From NCBI RefSeq assembly GCF_000738675.1, contig NZ_JPUX01000001.1, positions 806,001 to 870,000 of the forward strand: DNA of 64,000 nucleotides, in the 5' to 3' direction. Below the pieces are notes generated by a model. It saw only the letters and a list, made by a program, of their open reading frames with translations, had not been told where the DNA came from and did no database searches. Shown piece by piece: positions 18,447 through 45,361 of the stretch. This stretch comes from Serratia nematodiphila DZ0503SBS1 (GTDB lineage: Bacteria > Pseudomonadota > Gammaproteobacteria > Enterobacterales > Enterobacteriaceae). Position numbers and translations under genes: made by a program. Positions within the stretch are counted from its first letter, which is position 1. Each line of letters opens with the position of its first letter.

Positions 18447-18450
18447 ATCA

Positions 18451-21986: not shown

Positions 21987-22352
21987 ATGAAACCGTTACT
22001 GCTTAAACAACCGCTGCCGGAACTGCTGGAGATCGGCAGCGTCAGCAACCTGGGCGCCACGGTGATCGCCGGCACGCCAAACGTCGGCGTGGCCAGCATC
22101 TTCGGCGAACCGACCGACAACCTGAACTGCGGCGTGTTCAGCTGCACCCGCGGCAGCTTCGTGATGGAGTACCCGTTCGCCGAGCACGCCACGGTGTGGG
22201 AAGGCAGCGCCACCCTGACCAACGAACGCACCGGCGAGTCGGTGCACTATCAGGCCGGCGATTCCTGGTTCGTCGAGAAAGGCACTCCGGTGCGTTGGGA
22301 CATCACCTCGGATCGCTTCGTCAAACACTACCTCGCCATCGTCGAGGGCTGA
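21987..22352 (+). CDS. Cupin-domain protein (DUF861-like)
   Basis: A 121-residue single-domain cupin: FVMEYPFAEHATVWEGSATLTN, quoted in part as EYPFAEHATVWEGSATL, is followed by VHYQAGDSWFVEKGTPVRWDI. It fits the short DUF861 cupins often found next to FAD-dependent amine oxidases in catabolic clusters. AGAGGAG stands before the ATG, 18 bp after the oxidoreductase. It may bind a metal and a small product, or help remove an unstable intermediate; its role is not known. Confidence 0.75.
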   Translation: MKPLLLKQPLPELLEIGSVSNLGATVIAGTPNVGVASIFGEPTDNLNCGVFSCTRGSFVMEYPFAEHATVWEGSATLTNERTGESVHYQAGDSWFVEKGTPVRWDITSDRFVKHYLAIVEG

Positions 22353-23299: not shown

Positions 23300-24412
23300 T
23301 TACAGGCCGAACTGGCGCGCCAGTTCGTCGAGCGCTTCGCGCTGGAAGCGATTGAAGGCGTCGCGCGGCTGCTGTTGCTGGATGAACTCTAGCAGCGGAT
23401 CCTGCACTTCCGTGCGCACGCCGCTCAGTTGCTCCATCACCGCCAGCCCGCAGAACGGCACGTAGGATTCGGCGTAGCCGCCTTCATGCACCATCACCAG
23501 CTTGCCGCCGCACAGCCGGTCGGCGGCGTCTTGCACCAGCGCGGTCATGGCGCGGAAGCTGTCGCTGTGTAGCTGCATGCGCGCCAGCGGATCGAGCGCG
23601 TTGGCATCGTAGCCGCAGGCGACGATGATCAGCTCCGGCTCGAATTTTTCCAGCGACGGAATAATGATGCGCCGCATCGCGTGCAGGTAGCCGTCGTCGC
23701 CGGCGCCGGCCAGCATCGGCACGTTGACATTGCAGCCTGCCCCGGCGCCTTCACCGCGATCCTGTTCGCCGGAATAGCCCGCCGGGAAGCAGCCGTCCTG
23801 ATGCAGCGACAGCGTCAGCACGTCGCCGCGCTGCCAATAGATATGCTGGGTGCCGTTGCCGTGGTGCACGTCCCAGTCGATCACCGCCACCTTGCCCAGG
23901 CCGTAGCGGGCCTTGGCGCGCTCGATGGCGATGGGAATATTGGCCAGGAAGCAGAAGCCCATCGATTGATCCGGCAGGCAGTGATGGCCCGGCGGGCGCG
24001 ACAGCGCATAGGCGTTATCCAGCTCGCCCTGCAGCACCGCCTCCACCGCCGCGCAGGCCAGTCCGGCGGAGAGTTTGGCGATTTCATAGCTGCCCGGCCC
24101 CAGCGGCGCTTCCTCCCCCAGCAGGCCGCCGCCGCTGTCGCTCACCTGTTTGAAGCGCTGCAGGTAGTGGGCGGGATGGATGCGCAGCAGGTCTTCTTCC
24201 GTCGCCGGTTCGGCGCTCAGCAGGGTGAGTTGGCGCGACAGGCCGGACACGTCCATCAGATTCTTCATGCGCCGCTTGGTTTCCGGCGATTCGGCGTGGC
24301 CAGCGCCGGAAGGCGGTTGCACCCAGCCGCCGACCGGCAGGGTGGTGGCGTGCAGGCCGGTGCTGTGCCAGAAACAGCGTTCATCAAACAAGAAACCGGT
24401 TGTTCTTTTCAC
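23300..24412 (-). CDS. Class II histone deacetylase-like amidohydrolase (acetylpolyamine amidohydrolase group)
   Basis: The 370-residue protein has the zinc-deacetylase core: RPPGHHC, GFCFLANI, VIDWDVHHGNGTQ (zinc-binding Asp and His) and ACGYDANALDPLARM with the third zinc ligand, followed by MVHEGGYAE. Bacterial members deacetylate acetylpolyamines or similar amides. It starts with GTG, overlapping the MFS stop upstream by 4 bp, so the two are coupled. Beside an FAD amine-oxidase-like gene, the context suggests uptake, deacetylation and oxidation of an N-acetylated amine, though the two groups are separately transcribed. Confidence 0.85.
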   Translation of the reverse strand: MKRTTGFLFDERCFWHSTGLHATTLPVGGWVQPPSGAGHAESPETKRRMKNLMDVSGLSRQLTLLSAEPATEEDLLRIHPAHYLQRFKQVSDSGGGLLGEEAPLGPGSYEIAKLSAGLACAAVEAVLQGELDNAYALSRPPGHHCLPDQSMGFCFLANIPIAIERAKARYGLGKVAVIDWDVHHGNGTQHIYWQRGDVLTLSLHQDGCFPAGYSGEQDRGEGAGAGCNVNVPMLAGAGDDGYLHAMRRIIIPSLEKFEPELIIVACGYDANALDPLARMQLHSDSFRAMTALVQDAADRLCGGKLVMVHEGGYAESYVPFCGLAVMEQLSGVRTEVQDPLLEFIQQQQPRDAFNRFQREALDELARQFGL

Positions 24413-25596
24413 CTTTCTCCTCCTGTTATACGGCGCGGTGCGCGCGGTGAAGCCAGCGAAATCAACAGCAGCGACAACAGCGCGCAGCCCAGCGCGCCGA
24501 ACAGCAAGGCGTTGAAACCGCCGGAATATTCGATTAAAGAGCCGGCCAGCGTCGGGCCGATGGCCATGCCGCCGCCGATCACCAGGTTGATGCCGTTCAT
24601 CAGCTTGCCGTCGTTATCCAGCCCGGCGACCCGCGCCAGAATGAATGGCAGCACGAAGGTCCAGGTGAATTTGAACAGCAGGGCCGCCAGGGCGAAGCGC
24701 AGCAGCAGGGGTTGGCCTGTCAGCAGCGCCACGCTGGCCAGCAGCAGGGCGTACCCCAGCACGATCAGGCGCCCGCCGCTGAAGCGCGCGCCGATCAGCG
24801 CCGCGGCGCTGGCGCCGACGATGCCGAGCAAGGTGGCGACGGCCAGCACCTGGCCGCTGTGGGCCGGCGACAGCCCGGCGCCGGCGGCGATGCCGCCGAT
24901 AAAGGTCCAGACCGCACTCAGGCTGATGTAAAAGGTCAGCACCGCCAGCACGGCGCACAGCTTGCGCGCCAGCGAGGCGGCGGGGCCGCTGCGGGCGGCG
25001 CGGGCGGCGGTGAAACCGCTGGGAAACGCCGGGATGAGCGGCAGGCAGCACAGCATGATGGCCGCCAAAAGCAGGTAGACCGCCATCAGACCGAAGTGCG
25101 CGAACAGCGGCGGCAGCACCAGCAGCCCGACCGCGCCCAGCACCAGCTGGCCGAGCACCCAGAAGGCATACACCCGGCTGGGATTGGCGGTGCCGGCGGC
25201 GCAGGTGATGCACAGGATCATCAGGGTGCCGCCCGCCAGCGAGGCGATAAAGCGCAGCGGCAGCAGCAGGGTGAAATCCTGCGCCAGCGCCGAAGCCAGG
25301 TTGCCGGCGATAAACACCAGCGCCGACAGCGTAGCGACCCGCCGCCAGTTGATGCGCCCGATCCACCACCACGCCGGCAGCGTGGCCAGGCTCATGGCGC
25401 CGAGTTCGGTGGAGAACAGGTGGCCGATCTGCGCCGGGCCGAGCTGCCACTGAGTCGCGAGCTGGGCGGCCACGGCGGGGGCGGTCATCAGAATGCCCGG
25501 CGCGATGGCGGCGAAGACGATAATGGCGGTCAGCAGCCGCGGCGGGCAGGGGAGCGCCGCGCCGACGGCGGGCGCGGAAACCGAATCACTGGACAT
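24409..25596 (-). CDS. MFS transporter
   Basis: A 395-residue, 12-helix major facilitator protein. I chose the ATG at 25596 (MSSDSVSAP), preceded by GGGGAAAAGG; a longer TTG start lacks that spacing. The loop WWWIGRINWRR after the second helix is the usual MFS cytoplasmic loop region. It is coupled with the downstream deacetylase-like gene, so it probably imports that enzyme's amide substrate or exports a product. The cargo is unknown. Confidence 0.78.
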   Translation of the reverse strand: MSSDSVSAPAVGAALPCPPRLLTAIIVFAAIAPGILMTAPAVAAQLATQWQLGPAQIGHLFSTELGAMSLATLPAWWWIGRINWRRVATLSALVFIAGNLASALAQDFTLLLPLRFIASLAGGTLMILCITCAAGTANPSRVYAFWVLGQLVLGAVGLLVLPPLFAHFGLMAVYLLLAAIMLCCLPLIPAFPSGFTAARAARSGPAASLARKLCAVLAVLTFYISLSAVWTFIGGIAAGAGLSPAHSGQVLAVATLLGIVGASAAALIGARFSGGRLIVLGYALLLASVALLTGQPLLLRFALAALLFKFTWTFVLPFILARVAGLDNDGKLMNGINLVIGGGMAIGPTLAGSLIEYSGGFNALLFGALGCALLSLLLISLASPRAPRRITGGER

Positions 25597-25735
25597 AAAC
25601 CTTTTCCCCAAGCGTTGAGTGACGATGAAATATCCCGCCCGGCCCGATTGCGGGCAGGGGGAAGCCGCGCCATAAATGGCGAATATGTTCTGGCGTTATT
25701 TTCCGGCCGTCGGCAGCGGCGGCCGTTATCGGGCG

Positions 25736-26383
25736 TTAACCGTGAGCGAGAAAACCGCCGGCGACCAGTTCGGTGCGGTTCACCACGTCGGTTTTGGCGA
25801 AAATATTGCGCATATGGGTTTTCACCGTAGACAGCGAAATGCCCAGCTTCAGGGCGATGCGCTTATTGCTGGCGCCTTCGCGCACCATGTTGACGATCTC
25901 TTGTTCTTTGGCGGTCAGCAGCTGCGCCTCGCTGTCGGGCAGCAGATCGCGCGTCGCCAGCTCGATCAGCGGCAGCACCGCGCGCAGGCGGCCGCGCTCC
26001 ACTTCGGTAAACGGCGTATCGCGGATCAGCGACACCCCGGCAACGATGCGCTTACGCTGGCGAATAAAAATCTCCGTCATGTCGCGCATGTCGTTCGGCA
26101 GCATAAAGTCGTGGTAATAGCGGCGGTTGCCGGCGATCGCCGCCGGGCTCATGCCGACCATGGTGATGTCTTGCCGGTGGAAATTGGCCGGCTGCAGCGG
26201 GTCAATTTGCTGGAAGTGGTTCAGGTACTGCTGATGCGTTTTATCGGGCATGCCGTGCAGGATGTAGTGATCCGGCCGCAGGTCGCGATCGACCAGATAA
26301 AACACCCCGGCAGACACCGGGATTAGGTGCGTAATGGTCGCCAAACAGCTGTTGATAAAGGCATCGGATGCGGTGCTGTGCAT
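25736..26383 (-). CDS. moaR: LuxR-family activator, probable MoaR of the monoamine regulon
   Basis: The 215-residue protein ends in a LuxR-type helix-turn-helix (about 150-208; LTAKEQEIVNMVREGASNKR then GISLSTVKTHMRNIFAK). The N-terminal domain has no receiver signature. It is divergent from atsA-atsB across 483 bp, and the cluster downstream contains moaF. In Klebsiella, MoaR positively controls arylsulfatase, tyramine oxidase and moaEF, so context suggests the orthologue. Two matching palindromes, before atsA and before the permease, are its probable sites. Identification rests on context more than on sequence. Confidence 0.65.
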   Translation of the reverse strand: MHSTASDAFINSCLATITHLIPVSAGVFYLVDRDLRPDHYILHGMPDKTHQQYLNHFQQIDPLQPANFHRQDITMVGMSPAAIAGNRRYYHDFMLPNDMRDMTEIFIRQRKRIVAGVSLIRDTPFTEVERGRLRAVLPLIELATRDLLPDSEAQLLTAKEQEIVNMVREGASNKRIALKLGISLSTVKTHMRNIFAKTDVVNRTELVAGGFLAHG

Positions 26384-26866
26384 GATTCGTGTTCCTCCCT
26401 TTATCGTTCAATCTGGAGAAGGTTGGCGGTCAATATATGAACGATACAAGCATAGTTGTAGCAATTTGGCAACACAATAAAAACATATTAACAACGTGAG
26501 GCCGATTGCAATAAAACACATAAATAACAAGATGACACTGCGTTAATTAGGGCTTTTTCATTCGGATTTATCGCGATTTTCATTAATAGGTTAATGAAAT
26601 AATTCACCGCTTTTCCCGCTGAATTTACAGCGCTTTTCAATGCTTGCTCGGGTGAAGCTTTCGCCGCCCTGCGCGTGCTACAGCCGCCGCTGCCGGCCGC
26701 CGTCCCTCGTTCTTAAGAACGATAGCCAGGCTTTTCCGCCGCTTCCTACACTGCGAATTGAAGATAGCGCCAGGCGGCGCCAAACGTATAAGACGAAAAA
26801 ATGATGACCTTTATCGGGCTGAGGCGTCGGGTTGTTCAGTCCGCATGACCATACAGGGGACGGACG
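26384..26866. promoter_or_regulatory. 483-bp divergent control region of moaR and atsAB
   Basis: The moaR-proximal part (to about 26640) is AT-rich and has no recognisable gene. Near atsA it holds the perfect 16-bp palindrome TCGTTCTTAAGAACGA (26707-26722) and, 24 bp later, a -10-like TACACT (26747-26752). The atsA ATG follows after about 115 bp of leader, with AGGGGACGG just upstream. Confidence 0.6.
26707..26722. promoter_or_regulatory. 16-bp palindromic operator before atsA
   Basis: Perfect palindrome TCGTTCTTAAGAACGA. Ten of the 16 positions (TCGT, TTAA, ACGA with neighbours) recur in the palindrome before the permease (29774-29789), and the next bases ATAG-CAG also match. Its centre falls near -43 of the predicted start, the usual place for a LuxR-type activator dimer. 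Confidence 0.65.
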
Positions 26867-28585
26867 ATGCAGAAAAAAACGTTGGCGGTGGCGTTGAGCG
26901 GCGCCTTATCGGGCCTGGCTCAGGGGGCGGACGCCGATCGCCCCAATGTGCTGATCATTCTGGTGGACGACATGGGCTACTCCGACATCAGCCCGTTCGG
27001 CGGCGAGATACCGACGCCCAACCTGCAGGCGCTGGCCGAACGGGGCGTGCGCATGAGCCAGTACTACACCTCGCCGATGTCGGCGCCGGCGCGGTCGATG
27101 TTGATGACCGGCAACACCAACCAGCAGGCCGGCATGGGCGGCATGTGGTGGTATGAGAGCACCGCCGCGCAGCCGGGGTATGAAATGCGCCTGACCGACC
27201 GCGTGATCACGCTGCCGGAGCGTTTTCGCGACGCGGGTTACGCCACCATGATGGCGGGCAAATGGCACCTGGGCTATGTTGATGGTGCCAAACCGACCGA
27301 TCGCGGCTTCGAGCGCGCCTTCGCCTTTATGGGCGGCGGCACCAGCCATTTCGACGACGCGAAACCGCTGGGCACCGTGGAGGCGTTCCATACCTTCTAC
27401 ACCCTGAATGGCAAGCGCGTGTCGCTGCCCAAAGATTTTTATTCCAGCAAGGCCTATGCCGACCAGCTGGAACAGTGGATCCGTGATACTCCGCAGAATA
27501 AACCCGTCTTCGCCTATCTGGCGTTTACCGCGCCGCACGATCCGCTGCAGGCGCCGGATGACTGGATCGCCAAATTCGACGGCAAATACGACGCCGGCTA
27601 TCAGCAGGCCTATCAGCAGCGCATTCAGCGCCTGAAAGCGCTGGGATTGATTTCCGATCGCACGCCGATGCCGATGCCGACGCTGGCGCTGGATAAGGCT
27701 TGGAACGCGCTGACGCCGGAACAGCAAAAATATGAAGCCAAGACCATGCAGGTGTACGCGGCGATGATCGCTTACATGGACGATCAGGTCGGCGCGGTGT
27801 TGAACACCCTGAAGCAGACCGGCCGCGACCAAAATACGGTGATCGTGTTCGCCACCGACAACGGCGCCAACCCGGCCAGCGGCTTCTACTACGGCTCGAA
27901 GCCGGAGTATTGGCGGCAGTTCGACAACAGCTACGCCAACCTCGGCCGCAAGGGATCGTTCATCTCCTACGGGCCGCACTGGGCCAACGTCAGCAACGCG
28001 CCATACGCCAACTACCACAAAACCACCAGCGCGCAGGGCGGTATCAACACCGATTTTATCATCTCCGCGCCGGGGTTGAAGGGCCGCGGCGGTATCGATC
28101 GCACGCCGATGGCGGTGTATGACATCGCGCCGACGCTGTATGACTATGCCGGCATCGACGCCAGCAAACCGCTGAAGGCCAAACCGACGCTGCCGATGGT
28201 CGGCGTCAGCTTCAAGCGCTATTTCAGCGGCGAGGCCGACGGTGTGCCGCGCGCGACCTACGGCGTGGAGCTGCATAACCAGGCCGCCTATGTAGACGGC
28301 ATCTGGAAGCTGCGGCGGTTGGTGAAGGCCGGGCCGACGGCGCAGATGGCGCCGTGGGGGCTGTTCAACCTGCATGACGATCCGCTGGAAACGCGCGATC
28401 TGGCCGCCGCCGACCCGGAACGGGTCAAACGGCTGAGCGAGGCGTATCGCCGCTTTGCGCAGCAGAGCATGGTTATTGAAGCCAAAGGCGCAGCGATCGA
28501 CTATCTCGGCGTCGACGCCAGCACCGGCGACTACACCGGCCTGGATCCACAGACCCACAAACCGTTGCCGCAGGCGGCGCCATGA
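26867..28585 (+). CDS. atsA: Serine-type periplasmic arylsulfatase
   Basis: The 572-residue sulfatase has an export signal (residues 1-20, ending LAQG) and metal-binding [13 protein letters not shown]. The modification motif [11 protein letters not shown] has serine at position 72, which a maturase converts to formylglycine; this is the Klebsiella AtsA type and not the cysteine type. KWHLGY and later ATDNGAN complete the active site. It cleaves aryl sulfate esters such as tyramine O-sulfate, giving sulfate and a phenol. It overlaps atsB by 4 bp, so enzyme and maturase are made together. Confidence 0.9.
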
Positions 28586-29766
28586 ACCTGGCCCAGCTGC
28601 GCGCGCAGCAGATCCCGGTAGAGAGCGAACCGCGCGCGGCGGCGCCTTTTCATTTGCTGGTGAAGCCGATCGGCGCCGGTTGCAACCTGGGGTGCCGCTA
28701 CTGCTACTATCCGCAGCGCCAGCAAGAGCGGACGCGCAAGATGGACGACGACCTGCTGGCGGAGTTTATCCGCGGCTACATCGCCGCCCAGCCGCGCTAC
28801 AGCCGCGAGATCAACTTCGTCTGGCAGGGTGGAGAGCCGCTGTTGGCGGGGATCGGTTTTTACAAGCGGGCGCTGGCGTTGCAGCGCCGCTTTGCGCCGC
28901 CGGGCGTGCGGATCAGCAACAGCCTGCAGACCAACGGCACCCTGCTGAACGACGCCTGGTGCCGGCTGTTCCGGCAGCATCAATTCATCATCGGCGTCAG
29001 CCTGGACGGCGATCGCGAGGTGCAGGACGCCCATCGGCCGGACAAGCGCGGCGGCGCCAGCTATGACGCCGCGCTGCGCGGCATCGCGCTGCTGCAGCGC
29101 CATCAGATCGACTTCAACCTGCTGATGGTGGTGCACGACGGCGTCGCGGATCGCGCCGAGGCGATCTACGATCATGCGGTGGCGATCGGGGCGCGCTATC
29201 TGCAGTTTCAGCCGCTGATGCTGGAAGGGGATGCGCCCGCCGCCGGCTATGGGCTGAGCGCCGCCAACTGGGGGCGTTTCATGCTGGCGGTGTACCGCCG
29301 CTGGCGCAGCCGCGGGCACGTCGGTCAGGTGTTTGTGATGAACATCGAACAGGTCTACGCGCAGTATTTCACCCACGTCAGCCCCAGCTGCGTGCACGCC
29401 GAACGCTGCGGCGGCAATCTGGTGATGGAGCCGGACGGTCGCCTCTACGCCTGCGATCATCTGATCAACGCGCAGCACCTGCTCGGCCATGCCGATCGGC
29501 AGACGCCGCTCGCCACCCTGGCGGCAAGGGCGGCGGAGATGCCGTTCGGCAGGAACAAAAGCCTGCGTCGCGAGTGCCAACGCTGCAGCGTGAAAAGCGT
29601 CTGCCAGGGCGGCTGCCCGGCGCATGTGGGCGAAGATCGCTACAACCGGTTGTGCGCCGGCTATTACGCCTTCTTTTCCGCGCTGTTGGCGCCGCTGCTC
29701 GCCTACCCGCGCAGCCCGCAGGGAGCGATGCAGTGGCGCGCCGCCGTGAGCGCCGCCGCAGGTTGA
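28582..29766 (+). CDS. atsB: Radical-SAM anaerobic sulfatase-maturating enzyme
   Basis: The 394-residue enzyme has the radical S-adenosylmethionine motif CNLGCRYC (Cys34, Cys38, Cys41) for one iron-sulfur cluster and a C-terminal SPASM-type region with further cysteine groups ([30 protein letters not shown]) for two more. It oxidises the active-site serine of AtsA to formylglycine before export. Klebsiella has the same pair in the order atsB-atsA; here it is atsA-atsB with ATGA overlap. The next gene lies 130 bp on, with its own operator. Confidence 0.9.
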
Positions 29767-29773
29767 AAGCGTC

Positions 29774-29819
29774 TCGTCCTTAAGGACGATAGTCAGCATT
29801 TTCCTTTCCTCTCTATAGT
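29774..29819 (+). promoter_or_regulatory. 16-bp palindromic operator and -10 box before the permease
   Basis: Perfect palindrome TCGTCCTTAAGGACGA (29774-29789) followed 24 bp later by TATAGT (29814-29819). The core, the following ATAG and CAG bases and the 24-bp spacing repeat the arrangement before atsA. The permease operon therefore has its own promoter under, probably, the same MoaR-like activator. Confidence 0.65.
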
Positions 29820-29895
29820 GAGATGACCGCCGCTGGCGGTGAAAAACCTGCAAGCACCTGCATGCATCAGGCCAAAACTATAAGAGGAAATAACC

Positions 29896-31389
29896 ATGAA
29901 CCTGTCGTCGCGGTTGCACGCCCACCTGGCTCGAGGCAAGGTCGGCTTTCCCACCACCCTGGCCAGTTCGGTCGGGGTGATCATGGCCAGCCCGGTGATC
30001 CTGACGGTCACCAGCGGCTTTGGCATCGGCGGCGACACCTTTGCGCTGGCGATGCTGATCGCCTTCATCATGATGCAGGCGCAGCTCACCACCTTCTCCG
30101 AAGCGGCGGCGCTGTTGCCGACCTCCGGTTCGGTTTACGACTACATCTCCTGCGGCATGGGGCGCTTTTTCGCCATCACCGGCGCGCTGTCGGCCTACCT
30201 GATCGTGCACATCTTCGCCGGCACCGCCGAGACCATTCTCTCCGGCATCATGGCGCTGGTGAACTTCGAACACCTCAACACCCTGATGGAAAGCCACAAC
30301 GCCTCCTGGATGGTTGGCGTCGGGCTGGTCGTCGTGTTCGGCCTGCTCAACGCGTTCGGCATCGAGGCCTTCGGCAAGGCGGAGATCGTGCTGACCTTCG
30401 CCATGTGGAGCACGCTGGTGATTTTCGGCATCGTCGGGCTGCTGTCGCCGCATGCGGTGCCGCTCGAGGGCTGGTTCGGCAGCACGCTCGATCTGAACGA
30501 TCCCTTCGCGGTATTCAGCCTGATCGGTATGGCGATGTTCATGTTCGTCGGCTGTGAGCTGGTGACGCCGATGGCGCCGGAGATCAAACGCTGCGATCGG
30601 GTGATCCCGCGCGCCATGGCGCTCGGGCTGTGCGGCGTAGCGGTGTGCATGGCGCTGTACGGCGCGGCGCTCAGCCACCAGGTGGAAAACGTGGTGATCG
30701 ACGCCGCCAGCGGCACGCGTCTGCTGGAAACGCCGATGGCCATCCCGGCGTTCGCCGGCCAGGTGATGGGCCAGTTCGGCAAATACTGGCTGGGCGTCGG
30801 CCTGCTGCTGGCGGGCGCGGCGACCATCAACACGCTGATGGCGGCGGTGCCGCGCATTCTGTACGGCATGGCGCTGGATGGCGCGCTGCCGCGCATGTTT
30901 GCCTATCTGCATCCGCGCTTTAAGACGCCGGTGGTCGGCATTCTGGTGGCGGTCTTGATCCCCTGCGTACATGCCTTCGCCATTCAGGGCAACCTCGACA
31001 GGATCATTCCGCTGGTGCTGGCGGCGGTGTGCGCCTGGGGCGTGGCCTACCTGCTGGTGACCTGCTCGGTGGTGATCCTGCGCCTGCGCCGCCCCGATCT
31101 GCCGCGCGCCTATAAATCGCCGTGGTTCCCGCTGCCGCAGATCGTCTCCAGCGTCGGCATCGTGCTGGCCATCGTCTACATCACGCCGCCGGGGATGAAC
31201 CCGCGCGACGTCTACATTCCCTTCGGCTGGATGATCGGCCTGACCGCCGCCTATGCGCTGTTCTGGACGCTGTGCGTGCAGAAAGTGAATCCGTTCAAGC
31301 CGGTGCCGGTCGAGCAGGTGCTGGAGAACGCGTTCGCCAAGGGTGAAAACGAGGAGGCGCAGTTTGATCGGCTTACTTCCCTCACTTAA
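29896..31389 (+). CDS. APC-superfamily amino-acid/amine permease
   Basis: The 497-residue membrane protein has about 12 helices. Early conserved parts include GVIMASPVILTVTSGFGIGG and SEAAALLPTSGSVYDY, and the middle contains GCELVTPMAPEI, typical of the amino acid-polyamine-organocation superfamily. It heads an operon with a DUF3156 gene, two short-chain dehydrogenases and moaF. Placed between the arylsulfatase and the hpa genes, it probably carries an aromatic amine or amino acid released in the periplasm. The substrate is inferred from context. Confidence 0.82.
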   Translation: MNLSSRLHAHLARGKVGFPTTLASSVGVIMASPVILTVTSGFGIGGDTFALAMLIAFIMMQAQLTTFSEAAALLPTSGSVYDYISCGMGRFFAITGALSAYLIVHIFAGTAETILSGIMALVNFEHLNTLMESHNASWMVGVGLVVVFGLLNAFGIEAFGKAEIVLTFAMWSTLVIFGIVGLLSPHAVPLEGWFGSTLDLNDPFAVFSLIGMAMFMFVGCELVTPMAPEIKRCDRVIPRAMALGLCGVAVCMALYGAALSHQVENVVIDAASGTRLLETPMAIPAFAGQVMGQFGKYWLGVGLLLAGAATINTLMAAVPRILYGMALDGALPRMFAYLHPRFKTPVVGILVAVLIPCVHAFAIQGNLDRIIPLVLAAVCAWGVAYLLVTCSVVILRLRRPDLPRAYKSPWFPLPQIVSSVGIVLAIVYITPPGMNPRDVYIPFGWMIGLTAAYALFWTLCVQKVNPFKPVPVEQVLENAFAKGENEEAQFDRLTSLT

Positions 31390-31954
31390 TCGCGCCTGGC
31401 GGCGAGCGCCGTCGGGCTATCGGCCGGGCGCCGCGCTGGATCGTCTGGCGCGCAACCTGGAACCCTACGCGTGCGAACGCCTGGCGCCGGGCCTGCTGCG
31501 GCTGACGCTGCCGCAGGGGCCGCAGATCGAGGTCAGCGAACAGGTGCAGGGGCTGTTTATGGCGCATATCGTCAGCCACCGCTTTCGGTTACAGGGCGCG
31601 TGCGCAGCGCAGCCCCCGCTGACGCTGGACGTGGTGACCGGCGGCTGGCTGCGGCGGCGCGGCGTGCGCTATCTGCTGCGCCAGCGCCATGCGGCCGCGC
31701 AGCGGGTGCTGGCTGGCCTGCTGCGCTACCCGCAGATCGGCGAGACGCTGGCGCAGCTGGATTTTCGCCGCGTGCGGCTGACGGTGAACGACGGGCGCTG
31801 GCAGGTGGATATCGAGCATTTCGCCGCGTCGGAGGTGGTCAGCCGTTTGCCGGCCGGCCGCCGCTATCTGCGGCTGGACGCCGAACAGCGGCGGCTGCTG
31901 TTGAGCAGCCTGCTGATGATCGGCCAACTGATGGAGAAGCTGAATCATGAATAG
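31364..31954 (+). CDS. DUF3156-family protein
   Basis: The product of about 196 residues appears to belong to DUF3156, a family without assigned function. It is basic and rich in Arg and Leu, with no membrane segment or known catalytic motif. The TTG at 31364 is 7 bp after GAGGAGG and inside the end of the permease gene; an in-frame GTG at 31343 is possible but lies upstream of that site. The gene overlaps the next SDR by 8 bp. Coupled translation with the permease and SDR suggests a shared pathway role. Confidence 0.7.
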   Translation: MIGLLPSLNRAWRRAPSGYRPGAALDRLARNLEPYACERLAPGLLRLTLPQGPQIEVSEQVQGLFMAHIVSHRFRLQGACAAQPPLTLDVVTGGWLRRRGVRYLLRQRHAAAQRVLAGLLRYPQIGETLAQLDFRRVRLTVNDGRWQVDIEHFAASEVVSRLPAGRRYLRLDAEQRRLLLSSLLMIGQLMEKLNHE

Positions 31955-32729
31955 AGTGGTTGTGATTACCGGCGGCGGCACCGGCGTCGGCGCCGCCTGC
32001 GCCCGTCTGCTGGCGGCGCAGGGCGATCGGGTGTTCATCATCGGCCGCCGCCCGGAACCGCTGGCGGCGCTGGCGCATGAGATCGGCGCGCAGGCGCTGG
32101 TGGGCGACGCCGCCAGCGGCGAGAGCTGGGCCCACACGTTGCTGCCGGCCATTCTGCGCGACGCCGGGCGCATCGACTGCCTGATCGGCAGCGCCGGTGG
32201 CATGGGCTTCAAGCGCATTACCGAGATGACCGACGAGCAGTGGCAAGGGGCGATGGACAGCAACCTCAACAGCGCTTTCGCCAGCGCACGCGCCTGCCTG
32301 CCGGAGCTGATCAAGAGCGGCGGCAATCTGCTGTTCGTCGCCTCGATCGCCTCGCTGGCCGCCGGGCCGGAGGTCTGCGGTTATGTCACTGCCAAACACG
32401 CGCTGATCGGGCTGATGCGCTCCATCGCCCGCGACTATGGCCCGCTGGGCGTGCGCGCCAACGCGGTGTGCCCCGGCTGGGTGACCACGCCGATGGCGGA
32501 CGAAGAGATGCAGCTGCTGATGGACGCCCATCAGATCTCGCTGGAGCAGGCCTACCAGATGGTCTGCCGTGACGTGCCGCTGCGGCGGCCGGCCAGCGCC
32601 GAGGAAATCGCCCGTATCTGTCGTTTCCTCTGTTCCAGCGAGGCTTCAATCATTACCGGCGCTGCGCTGGTGGCCGACGGCGGCTCTACCATCGTCGATG
32701 TGCCGACATTGGCTTTCACTTCCCTGTAA
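31947..32729 (+). CDS. Short-chain dehydrogenase/reductase
   Basis: A 260-residue classical SDR with cofactor motif ITGGGTGVGAACARL, the central SAGG (in IGSAGGMGF) and the active-site YVTAK. The proton-relay Asn and the catalytic Ser (in LLFVASIAS) are present. It would oxidise a hydroxyl group or reduce a carbonyl with NAD(P). It is coupled to the DUF3156 gene and precedes moaF by 11 bp. In a monoamine-type operon the substrate may be an aromatic alcohol or a beta-hydroxylated aromatic amine; this is inference. Confidence 0.82.
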   Translation: MNRVVVITGGGTGVGAACARLLAAQGDRVFIIGRRPEPLAALAHEIGAQALVGDAASGESWAHTLLPAILRDAGRIDCLIGSAGGMGFKRITEMTDEQWQGAMDSNLNSAFASARACLPELIKSGGNLLFVASIASLAAGPEVCGYVTAKHALIGLMRSIARDYGPLGVRANAVCPGWVTTPMADEEMQLLMDAHQISLEQAYQMVCRDVPLRRPASAEEIARICRFLCSSEASIITGAALVADGGSTIVDVPTLAFTSL

Positions 32730-32740
32730 GGAGCATTTCC

Positions 32741-33538
32741 ATGAGTTCAGAAGCGGTATTCATTCAGGTTGGCGCGCTGGCGGAAGGCTTTGCGCCGCAC
32801 AGCAATACGCTGGAACGCCAGCACGGCCTGGCGGGCACCACGCTGACGCTGCGTTTCAGCGACGGCGCGACGCAGCGTTGCCGGTTCAGCGACGCGCAGA
32901 CGCTGGAGTGGGGGGAGCGGCGCGGTATCGCCTATCGCGCCACCAGCATTCGCCCCGGCGTGCTGTTCATCGATTTTCTCGATCCCGCCCGCGCCAACGC
33001 CAGCATTACGCTGGTGTGCGACCGCAATCAGGGCAACTTCACCGCGGTGTACGGCCAACTGCCGGACGAAGCGCAGACGCGGCTCGACGCCTTCAGCCGG
33101 GTTGAGCAGGGGCTGCCGCTGACCGCGGTCGAGGCCGAATTCCGCTTCGGCACGCTGGATGACGCCGACGCGGCGCCGCCGGGCTTTACCGATGAGCTGA
33201 TCGGCATGCGCAACATGTACACCTACAGCCCGACCGAGCGCTACGAGCACATCTACCTGAACGACAACTTCTACGCCTGGCAGTGTCTGGACGGGGTGGA
33301 GAAGGGGTTGGCGGACGTCGATCGCTGCCACTACGTGAAGGTGGCGGAGCAGCTTTATCTGTTCGTCTGGCGCGAGAAGATCATTCCGACGCTGGGCGTG
33401 GTGATGATCGATCTGCAGGGAATGCGCACCGACGGCAAGATCCTCGGTTATCAGGGCAGCGATTTCAGCGCGCTGAGCAACTTTGCGGTGGGCGCCCACG
33501 CGCAGGTGCTGAACACCACGCGCCACCCGCGAGGATAG
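32741..33538 (+). CDS. moaF: MoaF-family protein of the monoamine regulon
   Basis: The 265-residue protein has the look of two related beta-barrel halves (MoaF N and C domains), with VFIQVGALAEGFAPHSNTL at the start and NMYTYSPTERYEHIYLND in the middle. Despite the name, MoaF was described in the Klebsiella monoamine operon and is not an established molybdenum-cofactor enzyme. Its action is unknown; the fold suggests binding or isomerising a small aromatic molecule. AAGGAG before the ATG and flanking SDR genes place it in the operon led by the permease. Confidence 0.8.
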   Translation: MSSEAVFIQVGALAEGFAPHSNTLERQHGLAGTTLTLRFSDGATQRCRFSDAQTLEWGERRGIAYRATSIRPGVLFIDFLDPARANASITLVCDRNQGNFTAVYGQLPDEAQTRLDAFSRVEQGLPLTAVEAEFRFGTLDDADAAPPGFTDELIGMRNMYTYSPTERYEHIYLNDNFYAWQCLDGVEKGLADVDRCHYVKVAEQLYLFVWREKIIPTLGVVMIDLQGMRTDGKILGYQGSDFSALSNFAVGAHAQVLNTTRHPRG

Positions 33539-33542
33539 GCCG

Positions 33543-34334
33543 ATGAGCGCAACCTATGCGGCCGACGCCTTCGCCGGGCAGGCGGTGCTGGTGACCGGCG
33601 GCGCGCAGGGCATCGGGCTGGCGATCGTCAGCGCCTTCGCCCGGCTGGGCGCCGAGGTGACGATCGCGGACGTGCAGCTGCCGCAGGCGCAGGCGGCGGC
33701 GCAAATGCTGCGGGACGAAGGGCTGAGCGTGCAGGCGCTAGCTTGCGATCTGGCCGAGCCGGGGCCGGTCGCCGAGTTGGTGGCGATGGTGGGTGAGCGG
33801 CATCAACGGCTGGACGTGGTGATCCACAACGCCGCTTACTTTCCGCTGACGCCGTTCGCCGCCATCGACGCGGCCCTGCTGCAACGCACGCTGAGCGTCA
33901 ATCTGATGGCGCCGTTCTTTCTGGCGCAGGCGGCGCTGCCGTGGATGCGCCGCGCCGGCGGCGGCAGTCTGCTGGTGACCTCGTCGGTGACCGGCCCGCG
34001 GGTGGCCTACCCGGGGCTGGCGCACTACGCCGCTTCCAAGGCCGGGGTGAACGGGTTTATTCGTGCGGCGGCGCTGGAGCTGGCGGCGGAGAACATTCGC
34101 GTCAACGGCGTGGAGCCGGGGATGATCCGCACGCCGGCGATGGCCAACCTGGGCGACGCGCAGGTGAATCAGGCGATCGCCGCCGCGGTGCCGCTCGGGC
34201 GGCTGGGGGAACCGGAAGACATCGCCGCGGCGATGGTGTTTCTCGCCTCGCCGGCGGCGGCCTATATCACCGGCCAGACGCTGGTGGTGGACGGCGGCGC
34301 GCTGTTGCCGGAAACGAATGCTCCGCTTGCTTGA
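33543..34334 (+). CDS. Short-chain dehydrogenase/reductase
   Basis: The 263-residue classical SDR has VTGGAQGIGLAIV for cofactor binding, HNAAYFP in the nucleotide region, catalytic Ser (VTSSV) and the YAASK motif. It differs clearly from the SDR at 31947, so the operon holds two distinct dehydrogenases acting perhaps on successive intermediates. It follows moaF after 4 bp and ends the operon; an ERIC-type hairpin lies just beyond. Confidence 0.82.
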   Translation: MSATYAADAFAGQAVLVTGGAQGIGLAIVSAFARLGAEVTIADVQLPQAQAAAQMLRDEGLSVQALACDLAEPGPVAELVAMVGERHQRLDVVIHNAAYFPLTPFAAIDAALLQRTLSVNLMAPFFLAQAALPWMRRAGGGSLLVTSSVTGPRVAYPGLAHYAASKAGVNGFIRAAALELAAENIRVNGVEPGMIRTPAMANLGDAQVNQAIAAAVPLGRLGEPEDIAAAMVFLASPAAAYITGQTLVVDGGALLPETNAPLA

Positions 34335-35180: not shown

Positions 35181-35217
35181 ATGCCGGTTGTCATGTTTTG
35201 CCATTGGAGGAGTTCGC

Positions 35218-35850
35218 ATGAAAGGCACCGTATTTTCCGTTGCGCTGAACCACCGCAGCCAACTGGACGCCTGGGATCAGGCGTTTCACCAGCCGCCGTA
35301 CCAGACCCCGCCCAAAACCCCGGTGTGGTTTATCAAACCGCGCAACACCCACCTCGCCAACGGCGGGGCGATCCCGTTTCCGGCCGGTGAAACCGTGCAG
35401 AGCGGCGGCACGCTGGCGGTGATCATCGGCGACACCGCGCGCAAGGTGCCGGCGGCGCAGGTGAGCCGTTATCTGGCCGGTTACGCGTTGGCCAACGACG
35501 TCAGCCTGCCGGAGAGCAGCTTCTATCGCCCGGCGATCAAGGCCAAATGCCGCGACGGCTTCTGCCCGCTGGGAGAGATGGGCCAACTGGAGAATGCCGA
35601 TCGGCTGGAGATCGTCACCGAGATCAACGGCGTGGAGCAGGATCGCTGGTCCACCGCCGATCTGGTGCGCTCGGTGCCGGAGCTGATCGCCGCCATCAGC
35701 GATTTCATCACCCTGCAGCCGGGCGATGCGGTGCTGATCGGCACCCCGCACCAGCGGGTGGAGATCAAACCGGGGGATGAGGTGACGGTGCGCGCCGCCG
35801 GCCTGCCCACTCTGAGCAACCGCGTCACCCAGGCAGGAGCCGCATCATGA
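35218..35850 (+). CDS. hpaG1: 4-hydroxyphenylacetate degradation isomerase/decarboxylase, N-terminal subunit
   Basis: The 210-residue fumarylacetoacetate hydrolase-fold protein corresponds to the N-terminal half of E. coli HpaG, which decarboxylates 5-oxopent-3-ene-1,2,5-tricarboxylate. Features include LAGYALANDVSLPE, KAKCRDGFCPLGEM and LQPGDAVLIGTP. I start it at 35218 because GGAGGAG precedes this ATG and the longer version has an unrelated leader. It overlaps the second subunit gene by 4 bp. In E. coli both halves are one protein; here they are two separate, coupled genes. Confidence 0.9.
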   Translation: MKGTVFSVALNHRSQLDAWDQAFHQPPYQTPPKTPVWFIKPRNTHLANGGAIPFPAGETVQSGGTLAVIIGDTARKVPAAQVSRYLAGYALANDVSLPESSFYRPAIKAKCRDGFCPLGEMGQLENADRLEIVTEINGVEQDRWSTADLVRSVPELIAAISDFITLQPGDAVLIGTPHQRVEIKPGDEVTVRAAGLPTLSNRVTQAGAAS

Positions 35851-36611
35851 AACATGCCCGTATTCGCCATCATGGCCAGATCGTCAACGTTCAGGTGGAC
35901 GACCAGCTGCGCGTCACGTTGCCGAACGGCGAGGTGCTGCAGGAGCGCGAAGTGGAATGGCTGCCGCCGGCGCAGGGCACGGTGTTCGCCCTGGGGCTGA
36001 ACTATGCCGACCACGCCAGCGAGCTGGAATTCAAGGCGCCGGAAGAGCCGCTGGTGTTCCTCAAGGCGCCGAACACTCTGACCGGCCATCGTCAGGTATC
36101 GGTGCGTCCGGCCGACGTGGAGTACATGCATTACGAAGCCGAGCTGGTGGCGGTGATCGGCAAGACCGCACGCAACGTCAGCCGTGAGCGCGCCATGGAG
36201 TATGTGGCGGGTTACACCCTGTGCAACGACTACGCCATCCGCGACTACCTGGAAAACTACTACCGGCCGAATCTGCGGGTGAAGAGCCGAGATACCCTGA
36301 CGCCGATCGGGCCGTATATCGTCGATCGCGACGACGTCGCCGATCCGCACCGGCTGGCGCTCAGCACCTACGTCAACGGTGAGCTGCGCCAGCGTGGCAG
36401 CACCGCCGACATGATTTTCGACATTCCGTTCCTGATCGCCTACCTGAGCGAATTCATGACGCTGCAGCCGGGCGACATGATCGCCACCGGCACGCCGAAA
36501 GGGCTGGCCGACGTGCGGCCGGGCGACGAAGTGGTGGTGGAGATCGAAGGCATCGGCCGTTTGGTTAACCACATTATCAGTGAAAAAGATTACGAGGAGA
36601 GCCTGCGATGA
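35847..36611 (+). CDS. hpaG2: 4-hydroxyphenylacetate degradation isomerase/decarboxylase, C-terminal subunit
   Basis: The 254-residue FAH-fold protein carries the full metal-binding core: FALGLNYADHASELE, EAELVAVIGK (acidic ligands), NDYAIRD and MTLQPGDMIATGTPKGL. It corresponds to the C-terminal half of HpaG and isomerises or decarboxylates the open-chain product after HpaE. It overlaps both hpaG1 and hpaE by 4 bp (ATGA), forming a tightly coupled start to the operon. Two FAH domains, one partly degenerate, are normal for this enzyme. Confidence 0.9.
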   Translation: MKHARIRHHGQIVNVQVDDQLRVTLPNGEVLQEREVEWLPPAQGTVFALGLNYADHASELEFKAPEEPLVFLKAPNTLTGHRQVSVRPADVEYMHYEAELVAVIGKTARNVSRERAMEYVAGYTLCNDYAIRDYLENYYRPNLRVKSRDTLTPIGPYIVDRDDVADPHRLALSTYVNGELRQRGSTADMIFDIPFLIAYLSEFMTLQPGDMIATGTPKGLADVRPGDEVVVEIEGIGRLVNHIISEKDYEESLR

Positions 36612-38062
36612 AAACCATCAACCACTGGATCAACGGCAAGAACGTCGCCAGCAAAGAGTATTTCACCACCACCAACCCGGCGAACGGCGAGGTGCTGGCG
36701 GAGGTGGCCTCTGGCGGCCAGCTGGAGATCGACCAGGCGGTAGCGGCCGCGAAAGAGGCTTTCCCCAAATGGGCCAACACGCCGATGAAAGAGCGCGCGC
36801 GTCTGATGCGCCGTTTGGGTGAACTGATCGACCAGAACGTGCCGCAGATCGCCGAAATGGAAACCGCCGACACCGGTCTGCCGATCCATCAGACCAAAAA
36901 CGTGCTGATCCCGCGCGCCTCGCACAACTTCGAATTCTTCGCCGAGGTGTGCCAGCAGATGAACGGCAAGACCTACCCGGTGGACGACAAGATGCTCAAC
37001 TACACGCTGGTGCAGCCGGTGGGGGTCTGCGCGCTGGTGTCGCCGTGGAACGTGCCGTTCATGACCGCCACCTGGAAAACTGCGCCTTGCCTGGCGCTGG
37101 GCAACACGGCGGTGCTGAAGATGTCCGAACTGTCGCCGCTGAGCGCCGATCGCCTGGGCGAGCTGGCGCTGGAGGCTGGCATTCCGGCCGGGGTGCTGAA
37201 CGTGGTGCAGGGCTACGGCGCCACCGCCGGCGACGCATTGGTGCGCCATAAAGACGTGCGCGCGGTCTCTTTCACCGGCGGCACCGCCACCGGCCGGCGC
37301 ATCATCGAAAGCGCCGGGCTGAAGAAATTCTCCATGGAGCTCGGCGGCAAGTCGCCGGTGCTGATCTTTGAAGACGCCGACATCGAGCGGGCGCTCGACG
37401 CCGCGCTGTTCACCATCTTCTCGATCAACGGCGAACGCTGCACCGCCGGTTCGCGCATCTTCATTCAGGAGAGCATCTACCCGGAATTCGTCAAACGTTT
37501 CGCCGAGCGCGCCAACCGTCTGCGCGTCGGCGATCCGCAAGATCCCAACACCCAGGTAGGGGCGCTGATCAGCCCGCAGCACTGGGAAAAAGTCTCCGGC
37601 TATATCCGCCTCGGGGTGGAGGAAGGGGCGACCCTGTTGGCCGGCGGCCCGGATAAACCGGCCGGCTTGAGCCACGGCAACTTCCTGCGCCCGACGGTGC
37701 TGGCGGATGTCGACAACCGGATGCGCGTGGCGCAGGAGGAGATCTTCGGGCCGGTGGCCTGCCTGCTGCCGTTCAAATCAGAAGAAGACGGCCTGCGCAT
37801 GGCCAACGACGTGGAGTACGGCCTGGCGTCGTACATCTGGACGCAGGATGTGAGCAAGGTTCTGCGCCTGGCCCGCGGCATCGAAGCGGGCATGGTTTTC
37901 GTCAACACCCAAAACGTGCGCGATCTGCGCCAACCGTTCGGCGGCGTGAAAGCCTCTGGCACCGGCCGCGAAGGCGGGGAATACAGCTTCGAAGTGTTCG
38001 CCGAAATGAAGAACGTGTGCATTTCCATGGGCGACCACCCGATCCCGAAATGGGGCGTCTGA
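36608..38062 (+). CDS. hpaE: 5-carboxymethyl-2-hydroxymuconate semialdehyde dehydrogenase
   Basis: The 484-residue aldehyde dehydrogenase has the NAD region VSPWNVPFMTATWK, the catalytic glutamate in MELGGKSP and the catalytic cysteine in INGERCTAGSR. It oxidises the ring-cleavage semialdehyde made by HpaD to 5-carboxymethyl-2-hydroxymuconate. Position (after hpaG2, before hpaD) and sequence match E. coli HpaE. An intact start and a 4-bp overlap with hpaG2 support the ATG at 36608. Confidence 0.93.
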   Translation: MKTINHWINGKNVASKEYFTTTNPANGEVLAEVASGGQLEIDQAVAAAKEAFPKWANTPMKERARLMRRLGELIDQNVPQIAEMETADTGLPIHQTKNVLIPRASHNFEFFAEVCQQMNGKTYPVDDKMLNYTLVQPVGVCALVSPWNVPFMTATWKTAPCLALGNTAVLKMSELSPLSADRLGELALEAGIPAGVLNVVQGYGATAGDALVRHKDVRAVSFTGGTATGRRIIESAGLKKFSMELGGKSPVLIFEDADIERALDAALFTIFSINGERCTAGSRIFIQESIYPEFVKRFAERANRLRVGDPQDPNTQVGALISPQHWEKVSGYIRLGVEEGATLLAGGPDKPAGLSHGNFLRPTVLADVDNRMRVAQEEIFGPVACLLPFKSEEDGLRMANDVEYGLASYIWTQDVSKVLRLARGIEAGMVFVNTQNVRDLRQPFGGVKASGTGREGGEYSFEVFAEMKNVCISMGDHPIPKWGV

Positions 38063-38099
38063 GCCTCAGGCCACAATAATAACGAAAGAGATGAGAACA

Positions 38100-39173: not shown

Positions 39174-39181
39174 ATGCCGCT

Positions 39182-39200
39182 GCGCGGGCCTCGCCCGCGC
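39182..39200. other. Intercistronic hairpin between hpaD and hpaF
   Basis: Perfect 8-bp stem GCGCGGGC/GCCCGCGC with loop CTC, directly after hpaD and without a T-run. It probably stabilises or tunes the upstream mRNA and does not end transcription. Confidence 0.55.
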
Positions 39201-39223
39201 CTATGCGCCGTCTGGAGAACGCT

Positions 39224-39610
39224 ATGCCCCATTTTTACGCTGAATGTACCGACAACATCCGCCGCGAGGCGGATTTGCCCACCCTGTTCGCCAAGGTCAA
39301 CGAGGCGCTGGCGGCGACCGGCATCTTCCCGCTGGCCGGCGTGCGCAGCCGCGCCATCTGGCTTGATACCTGGCAAATGGCCGACGGCAAGCAGGATTAC
39401 GCCTTCGTGCACATGACGCTGAAGATCGGCCACGGCCGCAGTCTGGAAAGCCGTCAGCAGGTGGGCGAGATGCTGTTTGCGCTGATCAAGGAACACTTCG
39501 CCGCGCTGATGGCGCAGCGTTACCTGGCGCTCTCTTTCACCATGGAAGAGCTGGATCCGGTGCTGAATTACAAACAGAACAATGTCCACGCGCTGTTCAA
39601 CAAGGCGTGA
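39224..39610 (+). CDS. hpaF: 5-carboxymethyl-2-hydroxymuconate delta-isomerase
   Basis: The 128-residue tautomerase-fold enzyme begins MPHFYAECTDNIRREADLP; Pro2, after removal of Met, is the catalytic base. LAGVRSRAIWLDTWQMADG and NVHALF also match E. coli HpaF along the full length. It isomerises 5-carboxymethyl-2-hydroxymuconate for decarboxylation by HpaG. Homology begins exactly at the ATG at 39224, and upstream codons in this frame belong to the hpaD shadow. Confidence 0.93.
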   Translation: MPHFYAECTDNIRREADLPTLFAKVNEALAATGIFPLAGVRSRAIWLDTWQMADGKQDYAFVHMTLKIGHGRSLESRQQVGEMLFALIKEHFAALMAQRYLALSFTMEELDPVLNYKQNNVHALFNKA

Positions 39611-39624
39611 ATAAGGGGTCGTAA

Positions 39625-40428: not shown

Positions 40429-40434
40429 TAAGCA

Positions 40435-40452
40435 GGCTCGGCGAACCGAGCC
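40435..40452. other. Intercistronic hairpin between hpaH and hpaI
   Basis: Perfect 7-bp stem GGCTCGG/CCGAGCC with loop CGAA, then a second GC-rich inverted repeat around 40461-40485. No T-run follows. This is the only spacer of more than 70 bp inside the operon's pathway part and may set expression of the last genes. Confidence 0.55.
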
Positions 40453-40504
40453 GCAATAACCGGGCGGGGGCCACGCGCCGCGCCCGCTTGTCAGGGAGAA
40501 TGCG

Positions 40505-41299: not shown

Positions 41300-41302
41300 A
41301 CC

Positions 41303-42673: not shown

Positions 42674-42707
42674 TACGCAGACAGGCAGGATTGCAGGAGG
42701 TAATGAG

Positions 42708-43604: not shown

Positions 43605-43613
43605 CCGCGATCA

Positions 43614-45345: not shown

Positions 45346-45361
45346 TTCAGGAGGAGGTTGT

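Follow-up and report, generated by a model that had tools for sequence, protein, structure and literature searches.

A candidate aromatic-monoamine module adjoining the hpa pathway of Serratia nematodiphila, with MoaF as a possible dehydratase

The closest described systems to the locus considered here are the monoamine regulon of Klebsiella aerogenes, of which tynA/maoA is presumably a part, and the phenylethylamine/tyramine pathway of Escherichia coli (tynA-feaB-feaR). The locus lies in a stretch of 64,000 nucleotides from Serratia nematodiphila DZ0503SBS1 (the window, C1:806001-870000 of a 5.22-Mb genome), and its genes directly precede the hpa pathway. We propose that positions 19807 to 34334 form an aromatic-monoamine catabolic module that would feed hpa, with MoaF acting as a dehydratase. 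Taken whole, this reading falls a little short of an even chance; that the module is one for monoamines and has a flavin-type oxidase is, in our judgement, likely.

A Klebsiella-type gene set upstream of hpa

In K. aerogenes NCTC10006 (L033; L and G numbers denote the loci and genomes compared), one run of genes encodes a flavin adenine dinucleotide (FAD)-dependent oxidoreductase, a cupin, an amino acid-polyamine-organocation (APC) permease, a DUF3156 protein, a histone deacetylase (HDAC)-like protein, a major facilitator superfamily (MFS) protein, a regulator, AtsB, AtsA, MoaE and MoaF, with the annotations moaF, MoaE and 'monoamine regulon transcriptional regulator'. Identities to the window proteins range from 59 to 83%, with DUF3156 at 34%, and the MoaR-type regulator, atsBA and moaEF occur together at 58 to 74% identity in L033 and L017-L020. 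The regulon thus shares with the window an orthologous regulator, the sulfatase pair, a short-chain dehydrogenase/reductase (SDR1, or MoaE), MoaF, the permease, DUF3156, the HDAC-like and MFS proteins and the same candidate regulator box. It differs in that the window genome lacks a copper amine oxidase, has the order of atsA and atsB swapped, adds a second SDR, and has the cluster joined to hpa by position and operator. These comparisons support the view that what the window holds is the Klebsiella monoamine set in its Serratia form. The closest named loci are from Serratia itself, with MoaF at 98% identity in L001-L003 and L011.

An earlier note on this DNA had listed a sulfatase, a maturase, a permease, DUF3156, two SDRs, moaF and a MoaR-like regulator, and open reading frames (ORFs) and domain matches place every one of them where it was said to lie. 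The MoaR-type LuxR regulator is on the minus strand (25736..26383; PF00196; 61% to the so annotated regulator of L033). On the plus strand follow the AtsA-type arylsulfatase (26867..28585; PF00884), the anaerobic sulfatase maturase AtsB (28582..29766; TIGR03942, 392 bits, cut-off 349), the APC-family permease, a proposed amine importer (29896..31389; PF13520), its proposed partner DUF3156 (31343..31954; PF11354), whose frame overlaps the permease gene by 47 bp, SDR1 (31947..32729; PF13561), MoaF (32741..33538; PF10703 and PF17409) and SDR2 (33543..34334; PF13561). The hpa pathway does begin directly downstream, with the MarR-type repressor HpaR (34439-34939, minus strand; TIGR02337 over cut-off) and then hpaG1 to hpaX, hpaA, hpaB and hpaC (35188..45877, plus strand, from ORFs); HpaX is named from TIGR02332, over cut-off, the other hpa genes from ORFs and the annotation of L105 and L035.

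The interval first described, 25736 to 34334, omitted the HDAC-like and MFS genes (23300-25611). Because the same run is found in L033, the upstream genes from the FAD oxidoreductase to the MFS gene belong to the unit. They encode a DAO-family FAD-dependent oxidoreductase, a candidate monoamine oxidase (20667..21968, plus strand; PF01266, 170 bits), a EutQ-like cupin as its partner (21987..22352, plus strand; PF05899), an HDAC-like Zn amidohydrolase, a proposed N-acetyl-amine deacetylase (23300..24412, minus strand; PF00850), and the MFS transporter paired with it (24409..25611, minus strand; PF07690), a pair also present in Klebsiella-group loci. An alpha/beta hydrolase gene is found at 22399-23205 (minus strand), and a second LuxR-type regulator, LuxR2 (19807..20565, plus strand; PF00196), stands beside the oxidoreductase, in the same position as in L001, L003, L005, L012, L015 and L070.

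Conservation was followed over 20 MoaF lineages, which we defined from full-MoaF loci in long stretches; these end about 10 to 12 kb from MoaF, and absences are correspondingly soft. The lineages are Serratia, the Klebsiella group, Pseudogulbenkiania, Leeia, Prodigiosinella, Providencia, Paraburkholderia, a K. variicola plasmid, Paenarthrobacter, two P. aeruginosa plasmids, Azoarcus, Arthrobacter, Burkholderia (L040 and, by likeness, L087 of G682), a paralogue in the window genome, G125, G569, G682-C3, G702 and G641/G576/G573. The plasmid sample took 8 of 42 records with a MoaF match, 27 Rhizobium records and several others lying outside it. L023 (a 6-kb contig) and L041-L049 and L075-L084 (duplicates of longer stretches) were dropped from the count, as were the weak MoaF_C matches L094-L097, none of which had any of the query genes nearby.

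The cluster had been described as devoid of an amine oxidase. For the copper type this stands: no such enzyme was found in the window genome (0/1) or in the genus sample (0/30), with a search that works, since it gave matches in 11 of 394 genomes of the order. It does not stand for the amine-oxidising step as such, since the flavin DAO-type candidate and its cupin are encoded at 20667-22352, about 5 kb upstream of the interval then considered. The oxidoreductase is present in the same 25 of 30 genus genomes as MoaF, and the five without MoaF are the same five without the oxidoreductase (four of these measure 1.5 to 3.6 Mb); as the two genes are close neighbours, this shows that they are inherited together, not that they pair independently. 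Among the MoaF lineages it was found in the loci of eight (Serratia, the Klebsiella group, L022, L025, L027, L067, L088 and L089), at 63 to 73% identity to the window protein outside Serratia, and in every such locus the cupin follows it. In the order sample, MoaF_C was detected in 8 of 394 genomes (5 full-strength and 3 weak partial matches), and G080 is the single genome with both MoaF_C and a copper amine oxidase.

PuuB, also of the DAO family, was tried as an identity for the window oxidoreductase and rejected: the window protein is 36% identical to the genome's own PuuB, which belongs to a separate puuC-puuB pair (L098; 70% and 79% to E. coli), and its relative in L104 is 36% identical to E. 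coli PuuB. The nearest NCBIfam models fall far below cut-off (168.8 bits against 600), and the genome holds two further matches to the oxidoreductase, one at 36% and one a 52-residue fragment. By these comparisons the window enzyme is a lineage separate from PuuB, and it is likely a stand-in for the copper amine oxidase, with monoamines as its presumed substrates. Monoamine oxidase-type flavin enzymes (PF01593) gave three matches in the genome, at two places far from the cluster. The gap between LuxR2 and the oxidoreductase (20566-20666) holds an inverted repeat, ATGTCCC-N4-GGGACAT, which by eye resembles a variant of the MoaR box described below and is possibly a LuxR2 site.

Likewise, feaB is absent from the cluster itself, as had been said, and is present elsewhere: a search of the rest of the genome for tynA and feaB gave no tynA and, on contig 2, a feaB (75%) next to a feaR (52% to E. 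coli). An ipdC-type gene (TIGR03393, 494 bits, below the cut-off of 946) is located about 5 kb from this feaB. Only one of 19 aldehyde dehydrogenase matches to FeaB in this genome exceeds 42%. The gene occurs in 25 of 30 genus genomes, a set that differs from that of MoaF (G755 has feaB only, G752 MoaF only). FeaB-like (phenylacetaldehyde-dehydrogenase-like) genes, at 44 to 55%, stand in the MoaF loci of four of the 20 lineages (L022, L027, L089 and L091-L093), and hpa-type genes in those of five (Serratia, L027, L035, L037 and L067, the last at 36 to 43% only). The aldehyde dehydrogenase of L104 was rejected as FeaB-like, being 43% identical to FeaB, hardly more than the window genome's own PuuC-type enzyme, which is 42% identical to FeaB. 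The Paenarthrobacter plasmid pTC2 (L035) combines, inside 20 kb, a MoaF gene (53%), transporter genes of the APC permease and MFS types, hpa-type genes and a gene for a copper amine oxidase; judged from its genes, this actinobacterial plasmid is a separate assembly of the same functions.

MoaF and its partner genes

MoaF, named since the Klebsiella work, matches PF10703 (84.8 bits, cut-off 23.3) and PF17409 (164.4 bits, cut-off 22.1), and no paper assigning it a reaction was found in the literature searched. An orthologue has been solved (4q51, E 1.5e-94) and is titled 'uncharacterized'. MoaF has no match to PF05870 (PA_decarbox) at E 0.001; profile comparison suggests a relation to phenolic acid decarboxylase (PAD, or PadC), strong for the N half and weak for the C half. 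Against a profile of six PADs, the N half scored 39.9 (probability 84%, E 8e-6; shuffle controls were made for the C half only) and the C half 22.1 (probability 5%, E 0.0077, 25% identity over 84 columns), the highest score among 60 column shuffles being 18.9 and that of the reversed profile 12.2. In a sequence search of the PDB, the C half weakly matched PADs (E 0.22 to 1.2), with the unrelated 5ubu also there (0.72); in a profile search the best PAD reached E 0.0099 with the C half, PADs also came up with the N half (E 0.34 to 0.48), and no family other than PAD came within E 1. As the two halves match PAD and also one another (probability 70%, E 4e-5), MoaF is probably built of two PAD-like barrels in tandem.

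In the productive mode proposed for PAD, where two residue sets have been postulated, Tyr11/Tyr13 receive the p-hydroxyl and Arg41 the carboxylate, together with Glu64, Thr66, Thr68 and Tyr31 (PMC10915792). In the alignments, Y160, Y162 and E212 of the MoaF C half fall at the positions of Tyr11, Tyr13 and Glu64, so that the tyrosine pair for the p-hydroxyl and the catalytic glutamate are kept, whereas L190 and W180 take the places of Arg41 and Tyr31. Among 40 distinct MoaF sequences, nearly half of them from Serratia, Y160 is found in 39, Y162 in 40, E212 in 40, L190 in 39 (His in the remaining one), W180 in 40, D192 in 40, D194 in 40 and T217 in 38. L031 was left out of these alignments, its frame ending 34 residues after the expected start. 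A phenol-end pocket that has lost the carboxylate clamp and has invariant acids would fit a p-hydroxyphenyl amine.

Octopamine dehydratase (EC 4.2.1.87) and synephrine dehydratase (EC 4.2.1.88) perform the very reaction that we propose for MoaF, and to our knowledge they are activities to which no sequence is attached; no mention of either, of synephrinase or of the EC number was found in the literature searched. We put forward, tentatively, that MoaF is a p-quinone-methide dehydratase of octopamine and noradrenaline. The fuller version, a new enzyme type in which a fused PAD-like pseudo-dimer has exchanged the arginine for a pocket of invariant aspartates, is offered with slightly greater reserve. 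The suggestion of the earlier note that the two SDRs and MoaF act on beta-hydroxylated amines fits the relation to PAD and is plausible. In a proteome of B. thailandensis, a 'MoaF protein' and 3,4-dihydroxyphenylacetate 2,3-dioxygenase appear in the same list, both up about two-fold if its scale is so read (PMC12322963). The window genome has a MoaF paralogue at 32% identity (C1:1915796-1916116, L063), with an MFS gene and adjoining genes for a flavin mononucleotide-dependent dehydrogenase and a lactate permease; on these neighbours it was rejected as part of the system. A second MoaF-type match is found in 17 of 30 genus genomes.

No other gene accompanies moaF as constantly as SDR1, which is present in 13 of the 20 lineages. 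In SDRs, GRR after the second strand marks the NADP type and Asp the NAD type. Among relatives of at least 44% identity, drawn from 24 chosen loci and the window, SDR1 has GRR in 22 of 22 aligned sequences and SDR2 has Asp after beta-2 in 13 of 16, L037, L092 and L093 differing. For a dehydratase that is stereospecific, a pair inverting the carbinol by oxidation and then reduction would be a good match; the idea poorly explains why SDR1-moaF occurs without SDR2 in Providencia, the Klebsiella group and Azoarcus.

The HDAC-like protein matched 9glb ('Deacetylase', E 4e-215) and also the small-molecule amide hydrolases 9gku and 9gkw, and is 83% identical to its counterpart in K. pneumoniae L020, which is probably the HdaH of PMC11532494. 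HdaH is active on acyl-lysine peptides and sub-clusters with dimethoate and propanil hydrolases; its deletion gave slightly better growth in one minimal medium, no other effect being reported (PMC11532494). For the window enzyme we propose N-acetylated amines as substrates. The atsA-atsB pair is optional, occurring in 8 of the 18 Serratia loci compared (L001-L016, L021 and L031). In L017-L020, L022, L025, L033 and L034, the gene immediately after that of the window-type APC permease encodes DUF3156. A 2026 study assigns DUF3156 a type III secretion chaperone-like fold and predicts VapD as its partner (PMC13092808); gene context points to the permease rather than VapD as its partner.

Regulatory sites and expression

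A perfect 16-bp palindrome at 26707..26722 is likely the MoaR box. With a second site of 2 mismatches at 29774..29789, upstream of the permease gene, it makes up the only window sites within 3 mismatches of the pattern (0.08 expected; two sites in 1 of 100 shuffles). At least one such box is found in all 18 Serratia loci examined; two boxes flank the ats pair in 6 of the 8 loci that have it, and 8 of the 10 loci lacking the pair still carry the two boxes. In the Klebsiella group, a box precedes atsB in 6 of 6 loci (L017-L020, L033 and L066) and SDR1-moaF in L019 and L066 (3 mismatches). Outside this group it recurs in Prodigiosinella and on the K. variicola plasmid; in L025 and L034 it lies between moaR and the permease gene; with three mismatches it precedes SDR1 in Providencia L028, though not in L026, and another lies inside the cupin gene of L027. 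In G080, boxes precede atsB, SDR1-moaF and the oxidoreductase-cupin-permease run, the last (L104, 2 mismatches) standing between the oxidoreductase and a divergent aldehyde dehydrogenase gene, and hpa genes were not found in those stretches. No box within 3 mismatches was found in L022, L024, L036-L038, L063, L067 or L087-L092.

A different palindrome ties the cluster to hpa. CATTAA-N4-TTAATG occurs at 26578-26599, in the moaR-atsA intergenic region, as TTTCATTAA-N4-TTAATGAAA, and at 35161-35182, as the HpaR operator just upstream of hpaG1; these are the two window sites within 3 mismatches (0.01 expected, and none of 100 shuffles had two). A site of this type, with at most 4 mismatches, stands in the gap between moaR and the ats or permease genes in all 17 Serratia loci with moaR; in L005 and L015 the changes are symmetric between the arms, in others they are one-sided. 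In L016, which has no moaR in the stretch examined, it is found before hpaG1 only, and it was not found in L017 and L020 of the Klebsiella group. E. coli (L105) has a like site before hpaG, and footprinting of HpaR in Y. pseudotuberculosis gave TTAA-N4-TTAA, described as 'similar to E. coli W' (PMC7180172). The palindrome at 26578 is thus likely an HpaR-type operator that HpaR would bind. The hpaR-hpaG1 gaps of L007, L012-L014 and L031 hold a second, weaker site (4 mismatches) 196 bp before the hpaG1-proximal one, which recalls the two footprinted sites of Yersinia (PMC7180172).

RNA sequencing of an ipdc mutant of S. plymuthica A153 found twelve listed hpa genes lowered, together with RS12455 (LuxR), RS12465 (hypothetical), RS12475 (class II histone deacetylase), RS12485 (LuxR) and RS12500 (SDR) (PMC10364317). 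The spacing of these tags fits the gene order of S. plymuthica L012, which runs LuxR2, FAD enzyme, cupin, hydrolase, HDAC, MFS, MoaR, permease, DUF3156, SDR1, MoaF, SDR2, HpaR, hpaG1. We infer that RS12455 to RS12500 map onto this cluster, RS12455 being LuxR2; by this mapping, five of the twelve genes before hpaR passed the two-fold cut of the table (PMC10364317). RS13985, an aldehyde dehydrogenase gene at -6.30 and eight tags from ipdc, may be feaB. Position, the common HpaR-type operator and the published co-expression of genes matching the cluster all support a link between it and hpa.

Upstream of LuxR2, at 11653-19665, lies a minus-strand run encoding a 369-residue protein, a second APC permease, an aldehyde dehydrogenase of methylmalonate-semialdehyde dehydrogenase type and the omega-aminotransferase AptA (both over cut-off), and an iron-dependent alcohol dehydrogenase. 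The 369-residue protein, which we take to be peptidase-like, has no NCBIfam match; the run looks like one for beta-amino-acid catabolism.

The proposed pathway and its rivals

In the pathway that we propose, the substrates and reactions of which we infer from sequence, the amines would be imported by the APC permease, with DUF3156, and by the MFS protein; O-sulfates would be opened by the sulfatase, and N-acetyl amines by the HDAC-like amidohydrolase. Tyramine and dopamine would be deaminated by the FAD oxidoreductase and cupin pair, replacing TynA. Octopamine and noradrenaline would be dehydrated by MoaF, via a p-quinone methide, to an enamine that would break down to arylacetaldehyde and ammonia, the carbinol configuration being set by SDR2 oxidation (NAD type) and SDR1 re-reduction (NADP type). 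FeaB, encoded on the other contig, would oxidise the arylacetaldehyde to 4-hydroxyphenylacetate (4HPA) or homoprotocatechuate, which would then enter hpa. The arylacetaldehyde would be the form that lets a beta-hydroxylated amine enter hpa without side-chain reduction. MoaR would provide amine sensing, and HpaR would couple the gene set to the acid.

Several observations weigh against this pathway. Twelve of the 20 MoaF lineages lack the FAD oxidoreductase in the stretch examined (a soft absence); L035 has a copper amine oxidase near MoaF, L037, L092 and L093 have a class III aminotransferase, and an unlinked 646-residue Amino_oxidase-family protein on contig 2 (L064), one of the PF01593 matches, is another oxidase candidate. 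Since an ipdC-type gene lies near feaB, FeaB may serve IpdC-derived aldehydes, also or mainly, rather than amines. Of the two halves of MoaF, it is the C half that bears the needed residues, and this half matches PAD less well (probability 5% and E 0.0077 by hhalign; E 0.0099 to 0.29 for PDB profile hits); the whole-protein comparison aligned the N half only. The neighbours of SDR1-moaF in Providencia (L026) are genes for a putative cyclase and for a transporter of the CitMHS family. No MoaR box within 3 mismatches was found at the genome's own feaB (L062), at tynA-feaB of G080 (L068) or at the window oxidoreductase. On the side of expression, the A153 table does not list the other seven pre-hpaR genes of the twelve, which by our mapping include moaF, and HpaR bound neither 4HPA nor 3,4-dihydroxyphenylacetate in isothermal titration calorimetry (PMC10364317); the effect in the mutant can moreover be indirect.

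The question arises as to whether a dehydratase is needed at all. A purely oxidative module, in which the FAD oxidoreductase acts on tyramine and dopamine, followed by FeaB and hpa, would leave MoaF and the SDRs in accessory parts, as a binding protein or assembly factor or in the detoxification of aldehydes or alcohols. The oxidoreductase alone would complete such a path, the solved MoaF orthologue is, as said, uncharacterized, and in Klebsiella a monoamine-inducible 30-kDa protein reportedly depends on MoaF. We nevertheless hold this module to be rather unlikely, as SDR1 and moaF occur without the oxidoreductase in the stretches examined of L024, L026, L034, L036, L038, L090 and L091-L093, and the PAD-like residue set is kept throughout the 40 MoaF sequences at the frequencies given above.

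A further scheme begins with an SDR, which would oxidise the octopamine-type carbinol to an aryl aminoketone, to be isomerised or cleaved by MoaF; the product would not necessarily be 4HPA. The constancy of SDR1 beside moaF speaks for it, as does a 2,4'-dihydroxyacetophenone dioxygenase-family gene about 6.7 kb from moaF in L037. We give it little probability: several MoaF loci contain FeaB-like and hpa genes, which suggest an arylacetaldehyde product, and the NADP-type motif of SDR1 fits reduction better than catabolic oxidation. Lastly, the cluster could act on phenolics of another kind or on IpdC-derived aldehydes, its co-expression with hpa then resulting only from a common HpaR. This agrees with the fact that co-expression was seen in an ipdc mutant (PMC10364317), with the ipdC-type gene near feaB, and with the Providencia MoaF and the MoaF paralogue of the window genome, which stand among genes without an evident amine link. 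The monoamine-regulon annotation of the K. aerogenes orthologues, and the boxes of G080, a Klebsiella-like genome, at atsB, SDR1-moaF and the oxidoreductase run, in stretches where hpa genes were not found, make it improbable too.

Returning to the amine module with MoaF as dehydratase, its link to hpa is now stronger than the earlier note could show, and the idea of beta-hydroxylated substrates is plausible and comes with a concrete enzyme hypothesis, the relation to PAD giving one for the MoaF reaction at the level of residues. If MoaF is such a dehydratase, it would provide a gene for the sequence-less octopamine and synephrine dehydratases, and adrenergic amines would be opened without an amine oxidase. 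The module also offers a role for bacterial 'histone deacetylases' of the HdaH type. If the proposal is true, gut and insect-associated bacteria would be able to remove noradrenaline and octopamine, their sulfated and acetylated forms included, without recourse to an amine oxidase.

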